Source: Candidatus Kryptoniota bacterium
Lineage (GTDB): Bacteria; Bacteroidota; Ignavibacteria; Kryptoniales; JAKASW01
Direction of reading: 5' to 3'
Assembly (NCBI GenBank): GCA_024641705.1
Contig: JAHECO010000013.1
Span: forward strand, 1-64,000
DNA: 64,000 nucleotides
Each line of letters begins with the position of its first letter. The first letter of the stretch is position 1. Under the pieces are notes generated by a model, which did no database searches, was not told the DNA's origin, and saw nothing but the letters and a program-made list of their open reading frames with translations. Position numbers and translations under genes: made by a program. This document shows positions 3,606 to 55,678 of this stretch, one piece after another.

Positions 3606-3701
3606 CAGCGACCTGCGACATAGAGATTCTTTATTAACCTTGATCATGGTCACCGTCGATGTGGCGGCATTCATGACCAATCATCATGCTCGGAGTACAA
3701 A

Positions 3702-4820
3702 ATGAAGAAGATAATCATCGTGCTGGTGGCAATCGTCAGCTGCACCGCGTACGCGCAGGTGCCCGGCGGCCCCGGAACGTTCCCGGTACCTGAAATACCG
3801 TTTGCGCCGAAGCACTATGTCTGCTACCGCACAGATGGACCAATAAGGGTCGACGGCAGGTTGAATGAAGATTCCTGGCGCAAGGCCGCCTGGACCGACT
3901 ATTTCGTCGATATCCAGGGGAGCAGCCGGCCGCTTCCAAGGTATAAGACCAGGGTCAAAATGTTATGGGATAGCAAGTACCTCTATGTGGGGGCGGAATT
4001 GAACGAACCTAACTTGTGGGCCACGCTGAGACAGAGAGATACCGTCATATTCCGCGACAACGATTTCGAAGTGTTCATCGACCCGAACGGCAGCACACAG
4101 CCTTATTACGAGACCGAGATAAACGCGCTCGGGACCGTCTGGGACCTGTTGCTGAGGGCTCCATACCGGGACATCGACAGGGCCCCGATAAACGCGTTCG
4201 ATATAAAGGGATTGAAGGTAGGGATTCGTTTGCACGGAACGCTCGACAATCCCTCGGATGTCGACACCGGATGGACAGTCGAACTCGCGTTCCCGTGGTC
4301 AATCCTCGGACAGGGAGCTCTGGACGGGGCTCCGCCGCAGGATGGTTCTCAGTGGCGCATTAACTTCTCTCGCGTCGAGTGGCACCTCAAGGCCCAGAAT
4401 GGGATATATGCCAGAGAGACAGATCCAAAGACCGGGAAATCTCTTCCGGAAGACAACTGGGTCTGGTCCCCCCAGGGAATTATCGACATGCATTACCCGG
4501 AAATGTGGGGCTTCCTCCAGTTTTCCGGTAAAGCGGCCGGCGAGGGAAACGACCCATTTAAGTGGAACCAGATAGAGAATGCAAAATGGGCTCTCAGGAA
4601 AGTCTACTATGCTGAGCGCGGATACTTCATGGCACATGGTGAGTTTACCGCCAACCTCCCGGAACTCGCGCTGGATGCACCGGTGCCGGCAGGATATGCG
4701 TGGCCTCCGAAGGTTTATACTACTCCCGATCTTTTTGAGGCAATAACTTCGAGTGTTGACGGGAAAACCGTGGTCCATATACGACAGGATGGAATGACCT
4801 GGATTACGAAGAATAAGTAG
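3702..4820 (+). CDS. Secreted CBM9-like (DOMON-type) carbohydrate-binding protein
   Basis: 372 aa with a clear signal peptide (MKKIIIVLVAIVSCTAYAQ). The body matches the family-9-like carbohydrate-binding fold found alone in Bacteroidota: IRVDGRLNEDSWRKA opens the domain, then YLYVGAELNEPNLWAT, the calcium/ligand-type stretch DNDFEVFIDP, YYETEINALGTVWDLLL, and W-rich strands to the PEMWGFLQFS close. There is no catalytic motif of a known hydrolase. About 90 residues after the domain are of unknown fold. Likely an exported sugar-binding accessory protein of the neighbouring hydrolases. The 204-bp gap from GH3 suggests its own transcript or a processed one. Confidence 0.8.
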   Translation: MKKIIIVLVAIVSCTAYAQVPGGPGTFPVPEIPFAPKHYVCYRTDGPIRVDGRLNEDSWRKAAWTDYFVDIQGSSRPLPRYKTRVKMLWDSKYLYVGAELNEPNLWATLRQRDTVIFRDNDFEVFIDPNGSTQPYYETEINALGTVWDLLLRAPYRDIDRAPINAFDIKGLKVGIRLHGTLDNPSDVDTGWTVELAFPWSILGQGALDGAPPQDGSQWRINFSRVEWHLKAQNGIYARETDPKTGKSLPEDNWVWSPQGIIDMHYPEMWGFLQFSGKAAGEGNDPFKWNQIENAKWALRKVYYAERGYFMAHGEFTANLPELALDAPVPAGYAWPPKVYTTPDLFEAITSSVDGKTVVHIRQDGMTWITKNK

Positions 4821-4894
4821 TGCAGGACAGCCTGTAACTATGGAAAGCCTCGCAAGGTTTTGGCGTGATTGTCGTCGACATCCGGCGATGACGT

Positions 4895-4923
4895 TTGATA
4901 ATGAAGTAAGTGGATACTATTAT
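4895..4923 (+). promoter_or_regulatory. Predicted sigma70-type promoter of the L-fucose operon
   Basis: TTGATA (4895-4900), a 17-bp spacer, then TATTAT (4918-4923). It stands in the 280-bp gap before the aldolase gene and would give a leader of about 170 nt. There is no other equally good match in the gap. Found by eye only. Confidence 0.5.
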
Positions 4924-5100
4924 CTGAAAGCTGAACCTTGAGCAAAGGGCTCCAGCCGAGAATCAAAGGCTTGCGGTTTAACATTCGCTGTCACTATCAT
5001 CTCGCGGACCATTACCAAACCGGAGTCGATCATCGGCCGCCAGCATGAAAGTCCAGTTCGGTTTTTGTTTTCAAACATGTAATTCCAAGGAGTTGAGAAG

Positions 5101-5766
5101 TTGAAGCAGGGAATCGGGTCTCTTAGAAGAGATATCGTCGAGACCGCCAGGCGAATGTATGAGAAGGGATACGTAGCCGCTAATGACGGAAACATAAGTG
5201 CCCGCATCGACGAACGGACCGTTTTGATAACACCGACGCGCATCAGCAAAGGGTTCATGAAGGCTGAAGACCTCAGCGTGATCGACATGAATGGAAAATT
5301 GCTGAGCGGGGAGAGAAAACCTTCATCGGAGTCGGATTTTCATCTGAAGATTTACCGCGACAGGCCGGACGTGAAGAGCGTCTGCCATGCACATCCTCCC
5401 TACGCTACCGGATTCGCCGTGGCCGGAATACCACTTGACAAGATGGTCCTACCCGAGGTGATTATTAGACTCGGCATAGTTCCGATCGTCGAATACGGCA
5501 CGCCGGGTCACAGCGATCTGTACGACCAGATCGCGAAACATTTGAAGGCCCACGATGCGTTTCTACTTGCCAATCATGGCGCCCTGACCGTCGGCAGCAG
5601 CGTCATGGATGCTTACGACAAAATGGAAACTCTCGAGCACGCAGCGATGATCCAGTTCATCGCGCATCAGCTGGGGAGGGTAAACACTCTTCCCAGAGAT
5701 CAGGTCGACAGGCTGATTCCGTTGAGGGAGAAGTTCGGCGCGAGGAAAGACCTCAGTCTGGAGTGA
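5101..5766 (+). CDS. fucA: Class II aldolase, L-fuculose-phosphate aldolase type
   Basis: 221 aa Zn-dependent class II aldolase/adducin-family protein. It should cleave L-fuculose-1-phosphate to DHAP and L-lactaldehyde. The start is TTG at 5101, fixed by AAGGAG at 5087-5092; no better ATG is in frame. Zinc-ligand motifs are present: HAH (His96, His98) and LANHGAL (His159), with the catalytic-type Glu in VLPEV. N-terminal [20 protein letters not shown] is the typical family opening. First gene of the fucose operon, 34 bp before the isomerase. A second aldolase domain is encoded at 11143-13263, so the real substrate split between the two is not certain. Confidence 0.85.
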
Positions 5767-5800: not shown

Positions 5801-7618
5801 ATGACTAAACAGCTATTCCATGCCAACGGTCCCGTGAAACGTCTCAGGGGGAGCATGCCGAAAATAGGAATCCGTCCCGTCATTGACGGGAGAAGAAAGG
5901 GAGTCCGCGAGTCGCTCGAGGTCCAGACCATGCAGATGGCAAGAAACGCGGCGAAGTTCCTGACCGACAACCTGCGGCATTCGAACGGCCTGCCAGTCGA
6001 GTGTGTAATTGCGGACACGTGCATTGGTGGCGTCGCTGAAGCGGCCGAAACGGCCGAGAAGTTTGCACGAGAAGGCGTCGGAGTTTCGCTCACCGTGACG
6101 CCGTGCTGGTGTTACGGGACCGAGGTCATGGATAGCGATCCGCTCATCCCCAAAGCCGTGTGGGGTTTCAACGGGACCGAGAGGCCCGGTGCGGTCTATC
6201 TTGCCGCGGCCCTCGCAGGATATTCACAGAGAGGTCTCCCCGCATTCGGGATATACGGCAAGGATGTACAGGACAAGTCGGACACTCAGCTTCCTGCAGA
6301 TGTCAGGGAGAATCTCCTGCGCTTCGCCAAGGCCGGGCTTGCCGTCGCCGAGATGAGAGGGAAATCCTACCTTTCGATCGGCTCCGTCTCGATGGGGATA
6401 GCCGGCTCGGTAGTCAACCCGGACTTCTTCGGAGATTATCTCGGGATGAGAAACGAATATGTCGACATGTCTGAGCTGGTCAGGAGAATCGAGGAAGGAA
6501 TTTTTGATCCCGAAGAATACGAGAAGGCTTTGGCCTGGACGAAGAAGTATTGCGAAGAAGGCGAAGACATAAACTCCGACAGGAATCGCGCGTCGAGAGA
6601 AAGAAAGGATTATGAATGGGAAACGGTGGTGAAGATGGCGCTCATTGCCAGGGACCTGATGATCGGCAACGAGAGGCTCGCGGAGCTCGGATTTGGCGAG
6701 GAGGCCATGGGTCACAACGCTATCATAGCGGGGTTCCAGGGCCAGCGTCACTGGACCGACCATTTCCCGAACGGAGATTTTCTCGAAGCGATCCTGAACT
6801 CGTCCTTCGACTGGAACGGAATACGCGAGCCGTTTACTGTAGCCACCGAAAATGATAGCCTCAACGGCGCCGCGATGGTGTTCAGCCACCTCGTCTCGGA
6901 CAGGGCTCAGATGTTTTCAGACGTCAGAACATATTGGAGCCCGGCAGCCGTGAAGAGAGTCGCGGGCCATGTCCTGAAAGGAAAAGCGGCGAACGGAATC
7001 ATACACCTTATTAACTCCGGCTCGTCCGCCCTCGACGCGACCGGCCGGCAGAGAATCAAGCGCGAGCCGGCTATGAAGCCGTTCTGGGAAATATCATCCG
7101 ACGAAGCGTTGGAATGTCTCAAAGCGACAAAGTGGTGTCCGGCCGATAGGGAATACTTCAGGGGAGGCGGATTCTCCTCTCAGTTCCTTACAGAAGGAGG
7201 AATGCCCATAACCATGTCCCGCGTGAACCTGGTCAAAGGGCTTGGCCCGGTTCTGCAAATTGCTGAAGGGTACACGGTCGAACTCCCGAAGAAGGTCAAC
7301 AGGATTCTTGATAGAAGGACTAATCCAACCTGGCCTACGACGTGGTTCGCGCCGATACTTACCGGCAAAGGAGCATTCACGGACGTGTATTCCGTAATGG
7401 CAAATTGGGGAGCGAACCACGGAGCGATCAGCTACGGCCATATCGGCGACAAGCTGATGACTCTCGCGTCCATACTCCGCATACCCGTGAACATGCACAA
7501 TGTCTCCAGGGACAGGATTTACAGGCCGAGCGCGTGGAGTGCCTTCGGCACGGATGATCTCGAGAGTGCCGATTACATGGCGTGCAAGAATTTCGGACCC
7601 CTTTACGGCAGGAGTTAA
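5801..7618 (+). CDS. fucI: L-fucose isomerase
   Basis: 605 aa, close to the 591 aa of E. coli FucI and alignable over nearly the whole length: [49 protein letters not shown] and WGANHG are all there. Active-site residues expected for the Mn-dependent ketol isomerase are visible: Glu in ATENDSLNG, Asp in DVRTYWSP and His in the late MHNV. It converts L-fucose to L-fuculose in the cytoplasm. It has an N-terminal extension of about 18 residues relative to E. coli. It ends in TAA inside a 12-bp inverted repeat that separates it from the kinase gene. Confidence 0.97.
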
Positions 7619-46862: not shown

Positions 46863-47321
46863 ATGCGGATCGGCATCGCCTGCGATCACGGCGGATTCAA
46901 CCTGAAACGTGAAATAGCTTCGCGCCTGAGAAAATCCGGCCACGATGTGGTCGACTTTGGGGCAGCTGAGCTGGACGACAGCGACGATTATCCGGATTAC
47001 GTAATACCGCTTGCCAAAGGAGTCTCGGCGAAGGAAGTGGAGAGGGGAATTGCCATATGCGGGAGCGGTGTAGGTGCTTCTGTTGCCGTGAACAAGATCA
47101 GAGGCGTACGCGGAGCTCTCATTCACGACTCCTTTTCGGCACATCAGGGCGTCGAAGACGACGACGTCAATGTGATCTGCCTGGGAGGAAGGGTGATCGG
47201 CAATGAGCTCGCGTGGGAAATAATCGGTACATTCCTGAACGCGTCTTTCAGCGGAGCCGAGCGTCATCGGCGGCGGCTCGCGAAAGTGACTGCATATGAG
47301 GACAAGGAGAACGCCAGATGA
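46863..47321 (+). CDS. rpiB: Ribose-5-phosphate isomerase B
   Basis: 152 aa. Start ATG 46863 is chosen because GAGGAG (46850-46855) precedes it and MRIGIACDHGGF is the standard RpiB start; upstream in-frame ATGs give an unrelated tail. Motifs: ACDHGGFNLK, VDFGA, DYPDYV, GIAICGSGVGAS with the active-site Cys, NVICLGGRVIG. It interconverts ribose-5-P and ribulose-5-P in the pentose phosphate pathway. Its TGA stop overlaps the ATG of the next gene by 4 nt, so the two are coupled. Confidence 0.95.
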   Translation: MRIGIACDHGGFNLKREIASRLRKSGHDVVDFGAAELDDSDDYPDYVIPLAKGVSAKEVERGIAICGSGVGASVAVNKIRGVRGALIHDSFSAHQGVEDDDVNVICLGGRVIGNELAWEIIGTFLNASFSGAERHRRRLAKVTAYEDKENAR

Positions 47322-50149
47322 AGGTCAACCCACTTTTGAATCTCGAGAAACTCGGACAAAGCATCTGGATGGATTTCATCCGGAGAGAGATGATCGTCTC
47401 CGGCGAGCTCGAGAGGCGAATCGGTGAGGACGGTATATCGGGAGTTACTTCCAACCCTTCAATATTCGAAAAGGCTATCGCGGGGAGTCATGACTACGAT
47501 GAGGCCGTGCGCGCCATGGCTCTCGAGGGAAAGTCCGTTGAGGAAATTTACCGTGAATTGGCGGTCGAGGACATCAGGCAGGCCGCCGACGTATTCCAGA
47601 AAACATACGAGAAGACAAGAGGCGGAGACGGGTACGTAAGCCTGGAAGTCTCTCCGTCCCTTGCCCGCGATTCAAAAGGGACAGTCGAGGAAGCTCGCCG
47701 CCTGTGGGAAGCCGTGAAGAGGCCGAATGTATATATCAAAGTCCCGGCCACGGAGGAAGGACTCGATGCGATCCGCCGGCTCATAAGCGAAGGGATCAAT
47801 GTGAATGTTACGCTTCTGTTCGGCCTCCCGCGATATAGGGAGGTGTTGGAAGCCTATCTGTCCGGACTAGAGGAGCGGGCCGGAAAAGGATTGAGCCTGG
47901 ATGGAATATCCTCGGTGGCGAGTTTCTTTCTCAGCAGGATAGACGTCGTGGTTGACAAGGTCTTCGAGGAGAAAATCTGGAAGCAGGGGCCCGACACGGC
48001 GGAGGCGGTCCGGGCGCGCGGACAGGTCGCGATCGCCAGCGCGAAGATGGCGTACGAAATCTCGGGCGAGGTCTTCGAAAGCGAGCATTTCAGGAAACTT
48101 GCCTCGAAGGGCGCCAGGAAGCAGCGTCTCCTTTGGGCCAGCACGAGCACAAAGAACCCGGCTTACAGCGATGTGAAATATGTCGAAGCGCTCATCGGTC
48201 CCGAGACGATAAACACCCTCCCCCTGGAGACGCTCAATGCCTATCGCGACCACGGCGATCCAACCTCCAGGCTCGAAATAGATCTCGATGTTGCCCGGAG
48301 AGTACTCGAACATCTCCCGCTGCTCGGGATAGATATCGACGAGGTCACCCGGCAGCTGGAAGAGGAAGGGGTCAAGAAATTTGCCGATGCGTACGAAACG
48401 CTTCTCAAATCGCTTGCCGTCAAGCGTGAGTCGGCGCTGAAAGAGCCGGCAGATCCGGAAAAATATTCGCTCGGCTCTCTCGAAAAGGCGGTCAAAGACA
48501 GGATTGTGGCGCTGGAGAAAGAACAATTCGCGGCACGGCTGTGGCAAAAAGATGCCTCGCTCTGGAAGAACGACGAAGCGAGCCGTAAGATAATCAGAAA
48601 CTCGCTCGGCTGGCTCCACGTGGCGGAGAAGATCGAGGATGTCATCGGCGATCTTACAAATTTCGTTGCGGAAGTAAAAGACGCAGGCATCAGGCACGTC
48701 GTGCACATGGGGATGGGGGGGAGCAGCCTTGCTCCTTTGGTCCTGCAGGAGTCGTTCGGGCTGCCGGAAGGAGGAATCCCTCTTACTGTCCTGGACACGA
48801 CCGACCCCGCGACAGTCCGGAAGATCGAGAAGGAAGTGCCGCTCGCAGACACCCTTTTCATCGTGGCGAGCAAGTCCGGTACGACCGCCGAGCCTAACGC
48901 ATTCGGTGACTACTTCTACGATAAGGTGAAAGTGCTGAAGGGTACTTACGCCGGAGCCAATTTCGTAGCGATCACCGATCCAGGGTCGAAACTCGTGGGG
49001 GTTGCCAAGGAGCGGCGTTTCAAGCATACGTTCCTCAACTTCGCGGATATCGGCGGACGCTACTCGGCACTCTCCTACTTCGGCCTGGTGCCTGCGGCTC
49101 TCCTCGGAGTGAACGTGCAGGAGCTTCTGGTACGTGCCCTCCGAATGGCACACGCCTGCGATCAGTGTGTACCAGCCGGCAAGAATCCCGGACTGACCTT
49201 GGGCGCTGCGATGGGTGAGCTCGCGCTCAAGGGGAGAGACAAGGTTACGTTCATAGTCTCCAGGAAGGTGGCAACTCTTGGACTGTGGCTTGAACAACTC
49301 ATTGCGGAGAGCACTGGCAAGGAAGGGAAAGGTATTCTTCCGGTGAGCGACGAGCCGGTCCTGGATCCACGGGACTATGGTAATGACAGATTCTTCGCTC
49401 ACATAAAATTAAAGGGGGCGGTCGAGCCGGAGGTCGATGAGCGCGTGCGAAAACTGAGCGACGCGGGACATCCGGTGGTCAGCATAGAGATATCCGATCT
49501 CTACGACCTTGCGCAGGAGTTCTTCAGATGGGAGATCGCCACCGCGACTGCCGGCTCGATCATCGGCATAAATGCCTTCGATCAGCCGAACGTTCAGGAG
49601 AGCAAGGACAACACCAACAGGCTCCTCGACGAGGTGCGCAGCAGCGGCAAGCTTCCCGAAGAACCGGTCTCAGTTGAGGATGGGAACATCAAGGTGTTCG
49701 GGAAAGTGAAGGGGAAGACTCTCGAGGAAGTCATGAAGTCCTTCCTTGCCCTCTCGAAACCCGGCGATTACATCCCCTTCATGGCGTACCTGCCCATGAG
49801 CGAGGAAGTGGACGACCGCCTCGCATCGATCCGCGCGACGATACAACAGGCGCTTCACCTGACGACGACGTTCGGCTACGGTCCGCGCTTTCTCCACTCC
49901 ACGGGTCAATATCACAAAGGCGGGCCGAACACCGGACTATTCATCCAGCTGACCGCCGACGATCTTGTCGATGCGCAGCTTCCCGGCCAGCCGTACAGTT
50001 TTTCCGTTTTCAAGAGGGCCCAGGCATTCGGTGATCTTGAAGCGTTGAGACAGCACGAGCGAAGGGTCTTGCGTATCGATTTCGGTGATGATGTGGTCGC
50101 GGGTCTGGAAAGGCTGGACGAGTGCATTAAGAGCGCTCTGAAGAAGTAA
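47318..50149 (+). CDS. Bifunctional transaldolase / glucose-6-phosphate isomerase
   Basis: 943 aa fusion. Residues 1 to about 365 are transaldolase (QSIWMDFIRREM, GVTSNPSIFEKA, and the Schiff-base Lys in NVYIKVPATEEG). From about residue 390 is a Pgi domain: MGMGGSSLAPLVL, VASKSGTTAEPNAF, then FGYGPRFLHSTGQYHKGGPNTG. The fused form is known in several phyla. AAGGAG at about 47306-47311 precedes the ATG, which overlaps the rpiB stop. It couples pentose phosphate and upper glycolysis. Confidence 0.95.
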   Translation: MKVNPLLNLEKLGQSIWMDFIRREMIVSGELERRIGEDGISGVTSNPSIFEKAIAGSHDYDEAVRAMALEGKSVEEIYRELAVEDIRQAADVFQKTYEKTRGGDGYVSLEVSPSLARDSKGTVEEARRLWEAVKRPNVYIKVPATEEGLDAIRRLISEGINVNVTLLFGLPRYREVLEAYLSGLEERAGKGLSLDGISSVASFFLSRIDVVVDKVFEEKIWKQGPDTAEAVRARGQVAIASAKMAYEISGEVFESEHFRKLASKGARKQRLLWASTSTKNPAYSDVKYVEALIGPETINTLPLETLNAYRDHGDPTSRLEIDLDVARRVLEHLPLLGIDIDEVTRQLEEEGVKKFADAYETLLKSLAVKRESALKEPADPEKYSLGSLEKAVKDRIVALEKEQFAARLWQKDASLWKNDEASRKIIRNSLGWLHVAEKIEDVIGDLTNFVAEVKDAGIRHVVHMGMGGSSLAPLVLQESFGLPEGGIPLTVLDTTDPATVRKIEKEVPLADTLFIVASKSGTTAEPNAFGDYFYDKVKVLKGTYAGANFVAITDPGSKLVGVAKERRFKHTFLNFADIGGRYSALSYFGLVPAALLGVNVQELLVRALRMAHACDQCVPAGKNPGLTLGAAMGELALKGRDKVTFIVSRKVATLGLWLEQLIAESTGKEGKGILPVSDEPVLDPRDYGNDRFFAHIKLKGAVEPEVDERVRKLSDAGHPVVSIEISDLYDLAQEFFRWEIATATAGSIIGINAFDQPNVQESKDNTNRLLDEVRSSGKLPEEPVSVEDGNIKVFGKVKGKTLEEVMKSFLALSKPGDYIPFMAYLPMSEEVDDRLASIRATIQQALHLTTTFGYGPRFLHSTGQYHKGGPNTGLFIQLTADDLVDAQLPGQPYSFSVFKRAQAFGDLEALRQHERRVLRIDFGDDVVAGLERLDECIKSALKK

Positions 50150-50907: not shown

Positions 50908-51588
50908 ATGAAAGAGACGGCTGAGTTCCTGAAAGAAATTCCGATCTTCGCGAAGCTAAGCGACGACGAACTCGATATGATAAAGGACATAAGCGTCGTC
51001 AGGAAGTTTGCGAAGGACAGGATCGTTTTCCTTGAAGGCGAGAAATTTACCGGATTCTACGTGGTTCTGAGCGGATCGGTGAAAGTCTACAAGCTCTCCG
51101 GCAGCGGCGGCGAGACCGTGCTTCACATACTGAAACCGTACCGCAGTTTCGCTGAGGCCCCGATACTCACGGGCGAAACAGTGTATCCCGCCTGCGCCGA
51201 GGCGATTGAAGATTCCCTTCTCTACTACATCCCTGCCGTCGAGTTCAGGAAACTGCTTCAGAAGAGCTCTTCCGTCGCTATCAAGATTTCGGAAGTGCTG
51301 GCGCTCCGACTTACGGAGCTCAACAGGAGGTTCGGACAGCTCTCCGCGGGCGTTGAGGGAAGGCTCGCGCGATATATTGTCGGTGAGATCACCTTGAACG
51401 GGACGATCGACAAACCCGAACCCTTTTTCGTCCTTTCGTCAAGCAAGAAAGATCTTGCCTCCCAGCTCGGTATGGCGGTTGAAACGCTCTCGCGAGCCTT
51501 AAGGAAGCTGAAGAATCAGAAGATCATCAGGGAGTGTTCGAAGAGGATCTTCGTGGCTGACTTGAAGCGGCTGAAAGAAATTTCGTGA
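50908..51588 (+). CDS. Crp/Fnr-family transcription regulator (DNR-like)
   Basis: 226 aa. Cyclic-nucleotide-binding-like beta-roll at about residues 10-130 (GFYVVLSGSVKVYKL), long dimer helix, then winged HTH with recognition helix ETLSRALRKL. The E-xx-SR signature is that of FNR/DNR proteins, which bind TTGAT/TTGAC half-sites. There is no N-terminal Cys cluster as in FNR, so a DNR-type (NO or heme) or other ligand is likely. TTGAC palindromes lie in the nearby nitric oxide reductase promoter region (54064-54077, 54137-54150). It is the only clear regulator in the window. Convergent with the reductase gene. Confidence 0.88.
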   Translation: MKETAEFLKEIPIFAKLSDDELDMIKDISVVRKFAKDRIVFLEGEKFTGFYVVLSGSVKVYKLSGSGGETVLHILKPYRSFAEAPILTGETVYPACAEAIEDSLLYYIPAVEFRKLLQKSSSVAIKISEVLALRLTELNRRFGQLSAGVEGRLARYIVGEITLNGTIDKPEPFFVLSSSKKDLASQLGMAVETLSRALRKLKNQKIIRECSKRIFVADLKRLKEIS

Positions 51589-51678: not shown

Positions 51679-53988
51679 CTAGACCTGGCTCGAAAGGGCC
51701 TTCCACATCTTTTTTCTCGCGGCAAATATCCGGAGTGTGAAAATCAGGATCGGTATCGCACCCGCCGCTATGAACACCACGTCGGCGACGAGTCGGAGCC
51801 ACTCTAGCGTGTGGAACGTCCCGGCGTCGATGAAGGCGAGCCTCCTCGCGTGCCAGTAGCCATGGTTGACGACGTCCGCAAGTTGAAGGATGCCGGCCGG
51901 GAACATGTCGAGCAGCACCATGAGCATGAGCCCGACGTTCAAACCCCAGAAACCGGTCCTGACATATTTTTCGTTTTTGCTCCAGACGTCGTCCGTGGAC
52001 AGCCTGCGGAGCGTGTACATCATGAGCCCGAGCGCGAGCATTCCGAACACGCCCATCATCGCCGCGTGGCCGTGGTTCAGCGTAAGGAGCGTTCCCACCT
52101 CGTAATAGCTGACGATCGGGAGGTTGATCAGAAAGCCGAACACGCCGGCTCCAAGGAAATTCCAGAAGCCGACTGCCATCAGGAAATAGAACGCCCACTT
52201 CTGTCCCTGCGCGATCCGGGCTCCGCCGTTCCCGCTGGCGGGATCTACGACAGGCGAAGTCTTCCTTGTAAGCCTGATGAAATCCCATGCGTCGAGTGTC
52301 AGAAGTGTCAGCGGGACTACCTCCATCGCCGAGAACATGGTACCCAGTGCCATCGTTATGTTGCTCTGGCCTGTCCAGTACCAGTGGTGGCCGGTTCCTA
52401 TGATCCCGCTGCCGAGGTAGAGGATGGCGTCGAGGTATACCACGCGCGTGGCTGACGTCGCCCGGACGAGGCCGAGCTGATAGAATATTACCGCCACCAT
52501 GACCGTCGCAAAGAGTTCGAAGAAGCCTTCGACCCAGAGGTGTATTATCCAGAATCTCCAGTTATCTGCAACCGTGAAGTTTGTCGTCGGCCCGAAGAAG
52601 AGTGCCGGGAGGTAGAACAGCGGAATTGCCACGGCGGAGTAGAGGAAGAGCGAGCTCAGCTCCTTCTGGGATTTGTCCTTCATCGCGGGTTTCAGTCCGC
52701 GGAAAACCAGGACGAGCCAGATGACGAGTCCGATGATAAGGAGGAACTGCCAGGCCCTGCCGAGGTCGAGGTACTCCCAGCCCTGCATACCGAAGTAGTA
52801 CCAGAGTTTCCCGAGGAACTGGTTGATGCCGAGGAACTCGCCGAAGAGGCTCCCAAGCGCCACTATTACCACAGCTCCAAACAGGAAGTTGACCCAGAAC
52901 TTCTGTCCCCTGGGTTCCGATTTGCTGAGCAAAGGCGGGAGAAAAAGGCCGCCTGCGACGAACGACATCGCTACCCAGAAGATCGCAAGCTGAAGGTGCC
53001 ATGTCCTGAGGACATTGAATGGGAGCCACTTCTCCAGATCGAGTCCGTAAAAGCCGAACGGCTCTGCACGATAGTGAGCCAATGCGCCGCCCGCTAACGT
53101 CTGAAGCACAAAGAGGCAGGCCACAACCACGAAGTATTTCAGGAGCGCTTTCTGGCTCTCTGTCGGCGGTATGGCTGAAGATTTCGGGAAGTGATCTCCA
53201 ACTTCCGATTTCCATCCGAGATAATCGAACTTCCCGAAGATAAAGAGTATGAGCCCGGTCATCCCGAGGAGTGAGACCAGGCTTAACGCGCTCCAGATCA
53301 GGGCGGAGCTGGTCGGACCGTTCCCGGCCAGGCTGTCGAACGGCCAGTTGTTGGTGTAAGAATAATCCTTGCCCGGTCGGTTCGTAACGGCAGCCCATGC
53401 AGCCCACGCGAAGAACGAATTCAGCTGCCTGAGTTGCACCGGATCCGAGATGAAATCTGCCGGCAAACCCGGTGCTCTATCGGGCTTGGTGAAGTAGTCT
53501 GCCCAATGCTGGAGCTCACTCCGAAAGGCATCTGCCTCCGGCCCGGTAAGTGCGAGTACACCCGTCGCCTCGTCGTACCGGTTCGTGTGAAGCATGGCCT
53601 GAACATCGGCGATGATACTGTTTCTCTGGTCGGGGGTCAGGCTGTCGTAGGGAGTCTTGTACTTCTGCGAGGCCAGTTCGCCCTGAACAGTCATTGCCTC
53701 ACGATGCAGGTATTCTGCGGAATAATCCGGGCCGAGATAAGCGCCGTGTCCGAGTACCGTGCCGTGTTCCATCAACCCGTATTTCAGGAACACCTCCTGG
53801 CCCGCCTTAACGTCGGCAGAAGTGAAAATAATGTTACCCTGAGGATCGACCGCCTTGTCCGGGATCGGCGGCGCGTCCCTGTAACTCTTCACGGCGACAA
53901 AAATCAGAACGCTGAATGCGGCAATCATTATCAGGATTACCGACTGTTTCCACCAAGGTGATAATTTTTCGGTTTTCAATTCGTCCAT
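51679..53988 (-). CDS. norZ: Quinol-dependent nitric oxide reductase (qNor)
   Basis: 769 aa single-subunit NorB/NorZ type with about 14 membrane helices. The N-terminal extension (FTSADVKAGQEVFLKYGLMEHGTVLGHGAYLGPDY) fits qNor and there is no CxxCH haem c motif, so electrons come from quinol. Haem-copper core with the expected His residues: WHLQLAIFWVA, HLWVEGFFELFAT, GTGHHWYW. It reduces NO to N2O. Start ATG 53988 with AGGAGAAGAA upstream. The divergent region holds an FNR/DNR box at -41.5 from its predicted start. With no other denitrification genes here, NO detoxification is likely. Confidence 0.95.
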   Translation of the reverse strand: MDELKTEKLSPWWKQSVILIMIAAFSVLIFVAVKSYRDAPPIPDKAVDPQGNIIFTSADVKAGQEVFLKYGLMEHGTVLGHGAYLGPDYSAEYLHREAMTVQGELASQKYKTPYDSLTPDQRNSIIADVQAMLHTNRYDEATGVLALTGPEADAFRSELQHWADYFTKPDRAPGLPADFISDPVQLRQLNSFFAWAAWAAVTNRPGKDYSYTNNWPFDSLAGNGPTSSALIWSALSLVSLLGMTGLILFIFGKFDYLGWKSEVGDHFPKSSAIPPTESQKALLKYFVVVACLFVLQTLAGGALAHYRAEPFGFYGLDLEKWLPFNVLRTWHLQLAIFWVAMSFVAGGLFLPPLLSKSEPRGQKFWVNFLFGAVVIVALGSLFGEFLGINQFLGKLWYYFGMQGWEYLDLGRAWQFLLIIGLVIWLVLVFRGLKPAMKDKSQKELSSLFLYSAVAIPLFYLPALFFGPTTNFTVADNWRFWIIHLWVEGFFELFATVMVAVIFYQLGLVRATSATRVVYLDAILYLGSGIIGTGHHWYWTGQSNITMALGTMFSAMEVVPLTLLTLDAWDFIRLTRKTSPVVDPASGNGGARIAQGQKWAFYFLMAVGFWNFLGAGVFGFLINLPIVSYYEVGTLLTLNHGHAAMMGVFGMLALGLMMYTLRRLSTDDVWSKNEKYVRTGFWGLNVGLMLMVLLDMFPAGILQLADVVNHGYWHARRLAFIDAGTFHTLEWLRLVADVVFIAAGAIPILIFTLRIFAARKKMWKALSSQV

Positions 53989-54035
53989 TTTCTTCTCCTG
54001 GAATCGATATAGAACTTTCGGATAATTTCATCTGA

Positions 54036-54077
54036 ATATTAGCCGACGGTCGTGAAGAAAAAATTGACCTAAGTCAA
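54036..54077 (-). promoter_or_regulatory. norZ promoter with FNR/DNR-type box at -41.5
   Basis: Palindrome TTGACCTAAGTCAA (54064-54077), perfect TTGAC-N4-GTCAA, centred at 54070.5. On the minus strand a -10 TAATAT lies at 54041-54036, so the start would be near 54029. The box centre is then 41.5 bp upstream, the standard class II activator position. Confidence 0.75.
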
Positions 54078-54136
54078 GAAAAGCCATTTTCGGTCCGCAC
54101 CCGCCTTCTTTTCTTCCTGTGATAATCTGTCGATAC

Positions 54137-54178
54137 TTGACCGATATCAAGGTGGGGAGTTGATGTCGCCGATAAATT
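54137..54178 (+). promoter_or_regulatory. Promoter of the DUF2249 unit with FNR/DNR-type box at -41.5
   Basis: TTGACCGATATCAA (54137-54150), one mismatch from a perfect palindrome, centred at 54143.5. A -10 TAAATT at 54173-54178 gives a start near 54185, again 41.5 bp downstream of the box centre. This supports the ATG at 54201 as start of the first gene, since the upstream TTG lies in the -10. Confidence 0.7.
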
Positions 54179-54200
54179 GTCAGGAAGAAAGGTGATAGAA

Positions 54201-54479
54201 ATGTCGATTGAAAAAGATAGAGTTCTTCTGGATGTCAGGCCGATAATGCCGAAGGAAAAACATGCGATGATCTATGCCGCCTTCGAGAGACTTGAAGCCG
54301 GACAGAGCATGATGCTTATAAACGATCACGACCCTAAACCGCTCTACCACGAATTCAGCGCAGAGAAGCCCGGCATGTTCAACTGGGATTATGTCGAGAA
54401 GGGGCCCGAGATATGGAAGGTAGTAATCACGAAAAGCAGATTTGAGCATCAAAAACCTAAAACAACGGAATCGGAATGA
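54201..54479 (+). CDS. DUF2249-domain protein
   Basis: 92 aa from ATG 54201 (AAAGGTGA at 54188-54195). The domain shows LLDVRPIMPKEKHAMIYAAFERL, MMLINDHDPKPLYHEF and WKVVITKS, the usual pattern of DUF2249/YccJ-like small proteins, which turn up near NO and hemerythrin genes and may bind metal or redox partners. Exact function is unknown. Overlaps the next gene by 4 nt (ATGA). Confidence 0.85.
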   Translation: MSIEKDRVLLDVRPIMPKEKHAMIYAAFERLEAGQSMMLINDHDPKPLYHEFSAEKPGMFNWDYVEKGPEIWKVVITKSRFEHQKPKTTESE

Positions 54480-54949
54480 AACCAAGATTAAGTTATTCCA
54501 AAGTTGCTCCGGGCGCGTTCGATGTAATGCGCCAGTTGCAGCGCTATGTAGATAATTCGGGCCTCGAACGGTCACTTCTCGAACTCGTCAAACTCCGCGC
54601 CTCCCAGATAAACGGCTGCGCCTATTGTATCGATATGCATACGAAGGACGCCCGGGCAAACGGCGAGACGGAACAACGCCTCTACGGACTGAGCGCGTGG
54701 CACGAGGCGCCGTTTTATACGGAGCGCGAGAGGGCTGCACTCCTCTGGACGGAAACCGTTACTCTTGTGAGCGAGACGCACGTACCGGACGATGTTTATG
54801 AAGCCGTCAGGGAACAGTTCGATGAGAAAGAAATAGTGGACCTAGCCGTGGCGGTCGTTGCGATAAACGGATGGAACAGGCTTGCGATCGGTTTCAGGAC
54901 GGTGCCGGGTACTTATCGGCCGGTGAAAACCCCTGCGGCAACAGTGTGA
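54476..54949 (+). CDS. AhpD/carboxymuconolactone decarboxylase-like protein
   Basis: 157 aa. Core LLELVKLRASQINGCAYCIDMHTKDARANGE carries the CxxC (CAYC) with nearby His typical of AhpD-like alkylhydroperoxidase proteins. The rest (ERERAALLWTETVTLVSE, FDEKEIVDLAVAVVAINGWNR) matches the all-helical family. It may reduce peroxides or reactive nitrogen products. It shares the box-controlled promoter with DUF2249, supporting a stress role alongside qNor. Confidence 0.9.
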   Translation: MKPRLSYSKVAPGAFDVMRQLQRYVDNSGLERSLLELVKLRASQINGCAYCIDMHTKDARANGETEQRLYGLSAWHEAPFYTERERAALLWTETVTLVSETHVPDDVYEAVREQFDEKEIVDLAVAVVAINGWNRLAIGFRTVPGTYRPVKTPAATV

Positions 54950-55030: not shown

Positions 55031-55678
55031 ATGAAGATAGGTATTTTCGGAACGGGTATGGTCGGCAGCAGCATCGGAACCAAGCTCATCGGGCTTGGCC
55101 ATGAGGTGAAGATGGGCTCACGGACGGCAGGCAATACGAAGGCGGATGAATGGGCGAAGTCGGCAGGGGCAAAAGCCTCTCACGGTACTTTTGCCGACGC
55201 CGCGGGTTTCGGCGAGATAATCTTCAATTGCACTTCGGGTGCGGGAGCGACATCCGCGCTCAAGCTCGCCGGAGCAGACAGGTTGAACGGAAAGATCCTG
55301 ATCGATATATCGAACCCCTTCGACTTCTCGAAGGGGATGCCGCCGTCTCTCAGCGTGTGTAACACCGACTCGCTGGGTGAGCAGATATAGCGTGCGTTTC
55401 CCGGCGTGAAGGTCGTGAAGACTCTGAACACGGTCAACTGCAAGGTGATGGTCGAGCCGTCCCTGATTCCCGGCCCCCACGAAATGTTTGTGAGCGGGAA
55501 CGATACCGCGGCGAAGTTGCAGGTGGTGAAAATATTGAAGGACTGGTTCGGCTGGCAATCGGTGACGGACCTGGGCGATATCACCGGTGCAAGGGCGCAG
55601 GAGATGCTGCTGCCGATGTGGCTCAGGCTGATGGGCGTCTTCCAGAGCCCCAACTTCAATTTCAGAGTAGTGAAGTAG
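55031..55678 (+). pseudogene. NADP-binding oxidoreductase gene interrupted by one in-frame TAG
   Basis: Reads MKIGIFGTGMVGSSIGTKLIGLGHEV, a Rossmann dinucleotide site like that of NADPH-dependent F420 reductase-type proteins. At 55388-55390 a TAG stops the frame after SLGEQI; the same frame then continues with RAFPGVKVVKTLNTVNCKVM to a TAG at 55676-55678. The total of 215 codons is the normal length for the family, where this position is usually Gln. CAG to TAG is a single C-to-T change. TAG ends other genes here, so it is not a reassigned codon. A sequencing error or a recent mutation are the main options; the second half has no obvious own start. Confidence 0.8.

Follow-up and report, generated by a model that had tools for sequence, protein, structure and literature searches.

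Paired Crp/Fnr-Type Boxes at the Divergent norZ and DUF2249 Promoters of an Uncultured Bacteroidota Genus, a Probable Case of Common Control

Introduction

The palindrome TTGAC-N4-GTCAA is the recognition motif of HcpR1, and that of DNR is TTGAT-N4-ATCAA (Rodionov et al. 2005, PMC1274295). A single HcpR1-type site serves norB in Synechocystis, and the co-regulation of nor genes with those for DUF2249 proteins (COG4309) was already predicted in 2005 (PMC1274295). Gene context has linked this protein family to nitric oxide (NO) reductase since that year, and it has no known function. In rhizobia, beta-proteobacteria, and haloarchaea, DUF2249 genes are co-transcribed or co-induced with NO reductase under the control of NnrR, NsrR, or an archaeal motif. 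In Thermus thermophilus, the Crp/Fnr protein DnrT is needed for the expression of the DUF2249 gene drpA (PMC6282519). The Thermus genes serve nitrate respiration, with DrpA as a proposed nitrate sensor.

The locus described here belongs to an uncultured genus of Bacteroidota and lies in a stretch of 64 kb, referred to as the window, in which norZ, encoding a quinol nitric oxide reductase (qNOR), and a DUF2249 gene diverge from a gap holding one Crp/Fnr-type box for each of them. The consensus of these boxes in the genus, shown by the norZ box of the window and by almost every congeneric box, is TTGAC-N4-GTCAA. This is the HcpR1 motif and not TTGAT-N4-ATCAA, so that the DNR-type label of the preliminary description was dropped. 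The system shares with HcpR1 regulons and their TTGACnnnnGTCAA boxes (PMC1274295) the consensus, a Crp/Fnr regulator, and a small NO-related set of targets. However, HcpR1 typically controls hcp and frdX, and no Prismane (Hcp) match was found in the genome of the window; since the hcp gene is missing, we do not assign the system to the HcpR1 regulons. DNR/NNR regulons resemble it in targeting NO reductase and in relying on a regulator with an FNR-like recognition helix but no FNR cysteine cluster. They differ in their operator, TTGATnnnnATCAA for DNR, and in governing denitrification, while neither NirK nor cytochrome cd1 was detected in the window species. The system works like an HcpR1 or a DNR/NNR regulon, the likeness to HcpR1 lying at the level of box and regulon. 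The pathway from DnrT to drpA likewise connects a Crp/Fnr regulator with a DUF2249 gene, although in the service of nitrate respiration, and the rhizobial, beta-proteobacterial, and haloarchaeal systems lack twin boxes in a divergent gap.

The Locus and Its Two Promoters

The norZ gene (51679-53988, minus strand) encodes a protein of 769 amino acids with COX1 and NorB cytochrome c-like domains, a canonical qNOR that matches the solved enzyme 3ayf at 2.5e-182. Its product is a fused NorB with a cytochrome c-like domain and the FeB and haem ligand motifs expected of a qNOR. These motifs align with those of solved qNORs, and an NO dismutase was rejected on this ground. On the other side of the gap, a COG4309-like DUF2249 protein of 92 amino acids is encoded at 54201-54479 (plus strand, ATG at 54201), matching PF10006 (5.3e-27) with 93.9 bits against a gathering score of 29.5. 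It overlaps by 4 nt with a gene (54476-54949, plus strand) for an AhpD-like protein of the CMD family with a CxxC motif (PF02627, TIGR00778), which passes the core domain model TIGR00778 and reaches 24 bits with the AhpD subfamily model TIGR00777, the cut-off of which is 192 bits. Further downstream, an F420/NADP oxidoreductase-like ORF (55031-55678, plus strand) is interrupted by an in-frame TAG at 55388-55390, with the same frame resuming at 55406, and represents either a pseudogene or a sequence error. A 943-aa ORF at 47318-50149 (plus strand), by eye a transaldolase fused to a glucose-6-phosphate isomerase, is a retained neighbour of the norZ locus in G003, G010, and G012.

Both boxes are located where the preliminary description had put them. 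The norZ box (54064-54077, minus strand) is TTGACCTAAGTCAA, or TTGACTTAGGTCAA when read towards norZ, and lies 22 bp from the -10 element TAATAT (54036-54041, minus strand), which takes the form TAnnTT in the congeners. The DUF2249 box (54137-54150, plus strand), TTGACCGATATCAA, has one half-site (ATCAA) that is weaker than those of the congeneric boxes, and it is also 22 bp from its -10 element, TAAATT followed by GT (54173-54178, plus strand). Transcription starts were predicted at 54029 (minus strand) for norZ and at 54185 (plus strand) for DUF2249 by taking the first T of TAnnTT as -12, with the Bacteroidota promoter box at -12 to -5. This placement has been reported for Flavobacterium psychrophilum (PMC9723704). 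With these starts, the box centres (54070.5 and 54143.5) both fall at -41.5, the geometry of class II activation. A generic sigma-70 scan picked neither promoter, as expected for -10 elements of the Bacteroidota type.

Conservation within the Genus

Thirteen genomes were compared, namely that of the window and those of 12 congeners, the named ones being metagenome assemblies. A full or nearly full-length norZ with 80-87% identity is present in five congeners (G001, G002, G003, G009, and G012), and all five keep the norZ box. At the six norZ promoters, including that of the window, 22 bp separate the box from TAnnTT (TAATAT in the window) without any gap, and the six DUF2249 genes linked to norZ are all boxed, with the same 22 bp to TAnnTTG. 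In total, this spacing holds for both window promoters and for 16 of the 16 box-bearing promoters in seven congeners, of which orthologous promoters are non-independent, so that the norZ, DUF2249, and hemerythrin promoters count as the separate cases. The spacers themselves have kept their length among congeners and diverged in sequence. The preliminary description had staked its reading on conservation of the boxes at related norZ loci, and within the genus both the boxes and the class II geometry proposed for them are preserved. Its claim that norZ and DUF2249 are controlled together is also borne out by the presence of the same conserved box and spacing at both genes.

This association persists when the genes are separated. 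DUF2249 and norZ of G002 are split by the insertion of a gene of approximately 1.9 kb, and each retains its own box. Furthermore, norZ and DUF2249 occur in an identical set of seven of the 13 genomes (p 0.0006). In G010 (locus L128 on contig G010:C129, approximately 4783-5190), norZ has been reduced to roughly its last 33 codons next to DUF2249, and the region of the boxes is missing; here norZ has been deleted naturally along with the promoter gap that the two genes share.

Genome-wide scans were carried out as pattern searches. The motif TTGAY-N4-RTCAA-N22-TANNTT has one exact occurrence in the whole 4.6-Mb genome of the window, at DUF2249, and the norZ promoter escapes it only because its -10 element is TAATAT. 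Across the 13 genomes, box-N22-TANNTT gave 19 exact matches, against two for a reversed control. Seventeen of the 19 are at norZ, at DUF2249, at a second DUF2249 copy (G010 and G012), or at a gene for a double-hemerythrin protein (G003, G005, G010, and G012), in line with the small regulon that had been suggested for the window. The other two (G011:C76 and G005:C179) lack a plausible target and were not taken as members. Other genomic TTGAC-N4-GTCAA sites were likewise discarded, as those examined are mostly intragenic or without a -10 element.

The gene behind DUF2249 varies by species, being a hemerythrin gene, an AhpD gene, a DUF1858-DUF2249 fusion, or one for a NirK-like copper protein. 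AhpD is joined to DUF2249 in the window only; it is found nearby in G002 and G009, and does not appear in the norZ loci retrieved for the remaining congeners. On gene context, AhpD is a loose partner rather than a regular member of the set, and the hemerythrin genes, missed in the preliminary description, are the more regular ones. The double-hemerythrin gene (Pfam Hemerythrin) is found beside a regulator of the same clade as that of the window (L113, 7043-7915, minus strand; L115, 6816-7631, plus strand), with box-N22-TAACTT as its promoter, and in G003, G010, and G012 the boxed gene adjoins the orthologue of the window regulator itself. No such gene was found in the genome of the window. In G002 and G007 (L218 and L223), the double-hemerythrin gene carries one in-frame TAG, and roughly 200 bp upstream of it lies TTGACTCAGTCCCA, which resembles a decayed box. 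G001 and G012 have a NirK-like gene downstream of a DUF2249 gene and on the same strand as it, and no nirK with its own box was found in the genus.

Outside the genus, 75 norZ loci include only one with a TTGAC-N4-GTCAA box, and that one (L279, Planctomycetota) lacks TAnnTT at 22 bp, which discards the idea of a universal norZ box. The near absence of the link between box and norZ beyond the genus argues for a wiring that, to judge from these loci, is specific to the lineage. In L279, the box TTGACATCGGTCAA (3662-3675) lies upstream of norZ without a -10 element of the Bacteroidota type, and a convergent Crp/Fnr gene (6231-6938, minus strand) adjoins the 3' end of norZ, an arrangement much as in the window.

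The Candidate Regulator and Alternative Explanations

A gene for a Crp/Fnr regulator with an E-xx-SR helix had been noticed just beyond norZ, and it is indeed present at 50908-51588 (plus strand), convergent with norZ, with the helix AVETLSR. This FNR-like E-xx-S-R recognition helix also occurs in the full-length homologues of its clade. The FNR-type 4Fe-4S cysteine set is absent, as residues 1-90 of the window regulator include no cysteine. Its relatives are regulators of denitrification: DNR is among the best solved ones, and others are encoded beside nnrS and nosL in Paracoccus and, as a close plasmid relative, in the Thermus NAR1 nar island, the latter being presumably DnrT. Within the genus, homologues of the regulator fall into two clades, A (which includes the window gene) and B. 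Clade A is present in seven of the seven genomes with norZ, counting G010 with its remnant, and in one of the six others (p 0.005), and it adjoins boxed hemerythrin genes, which supports the earlier choice of the adjacent gene as the source of the likely binder of both boxes. Three observations count against it: clade A genes lie next to norZ in just two genomes, norZ is missing from G007 although a clade A gene is present, and G005 has a boxed hemerythrin gene with no clade A gene detected.

Before a regulator is assigned, it has to be considered whether the boxes are operators at all, given that TTGAC is similar to the sigma-70 -35 hexamer. That they are chance matches, or plain -35 elements of unregulated promoters, can be practically dismissed, because the entire palindrome is kept in both halves at a fixed spacing, and because the leading TTGAC begins 36 bp from the -10 element, too far for a -35. 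The less specific pattern TTGA-N6-TCAA is found in the whole 64 kb only at the two gap boxes (1.07 expected by chance). When the 213-bp gap was shuffled 20,000 times with its dinucleotides preserved, two or more such sites arose once, and on this result and the conservation a chance origin was rejected. Looping between the boxes was also rejected, as the distances between their centres (68, 73, 74, 86, and 87 bp) are out of helical register. With the boxes taken as probable operators, they could be served mainly by the clade B paralogue (G000:C93 in the genome of the window), perhaps a regulator of the oxygen or redox type, in which case the response would be a general anaerobic one rather than one to NO. 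Its helix, NETLSR, conforms to E-xx-SR and could recognise similar boxes. Nevertheless, five of the six genomes that lack norZ and DUF2249 also have clade B, and no clade B gene was detected in G012, where four promoters are boxed. The boxes coincide better with clade A, which also adjoins boxed genes; clade A is therefore the better candidate, though both clades have E-xx-SR helices, and control by clade B seems unlikely.

A further element is found at norZ alone. An imperfect inverted repeat of 20 bp, TTCGGAT-N6-ATCCGAA (54017-54036), spans the predicted norZ start and recurs at all six norZ promoters, while the DUF2249 and hemerythrin promoters lack it, and its exact copies in the genus are confined to two norZ promoters. 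At least five of the six species agree in 15 of its 20 columns, compared with 5 of the 22 columns of the spacer. Four one-mismatch sites elsewhere in the genome were set aside, three of them being within predicted ORFs and one lying close to the end of a contig, where no gene follows nearby. The repeat may be a second operator of norZ, bound by a repressor as its location across the start would suggest. It is conceivable, if only tentatively, that norZ is under dual control, by an activator at -41.5 and by a second regulator, probably a repressor, on the repeat. Against this, the repeat has no known regulator, is imperfect in four of the six species, and owes part of its conservation to the -10 element itself. 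In any case, dual control is an addition to the main explanation and not a replacement for it.

Proposed Mechanism and Implications

The divergent norZ and DUF2249 promoters with their conserved and equally placed boxes are a confirmed, well-supported pattern. Building on the observed boxes, spacing, conservation, and co-occurrence, it is proposed that one common regulator probably switches on both genes. In this mechanism, the norZ-DUF2249 gap would hold two divergent promoters, and a Crp/Fnr-type dimer, most likely the product of 50908-51588, would bind each TTGAC-N4-GTCAA-type box at -41.5 and act on RNA polymerase as a class II activator, rather than as a repressor, of norZ to the left and of DUF2249-AhpD to the right. 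In other members of the genus, the same promoter would drive the double-hemerythrin gene and the second DUF2249 gene. The regulon would serve NO protection, with qNOR converting NO to N2O, and the DUF2249 and hemerythrin proteins would be accessories co-induced with it. It is solely from these targets that we infer NO as the signal. Taken as a whole, this model of class II activation by a clade A-type regulator is considered quite likely.

The gene content of the window species bears on where the NO would come from. No homologue of the congeneric NirK and no cytochrome cd1 gene were found in its genome, and its NrfA-family matches are weak and partial. Having norZ but no nitrite reductase that forms NO is consistent with a defence against NO released by neighbours or coming from outside, as is the lack, taken together, of NirK, cytochrome cd1, and Hcp homologues.

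A bolder proposal holds that DUF2249 is an obligatory partner of qNOR in this lineage, and that norZ alone is gated by a second factor at the start-site palindrome, which would make up a two-signal NO switch. We regard it as improbable; if true, it would be a type of control without earlier description.

Wherever a congeneric genome has either gene, one box and one geometry link DUF2249 with qNOR, and they do so even when the two are separated. Box-N22-TAnnTT offers a clean promoter model for class II Crp/Fnr activation with a Bacteroidota-type -10 element, and with so small a regulon the role of DUF2249 becomes testable.
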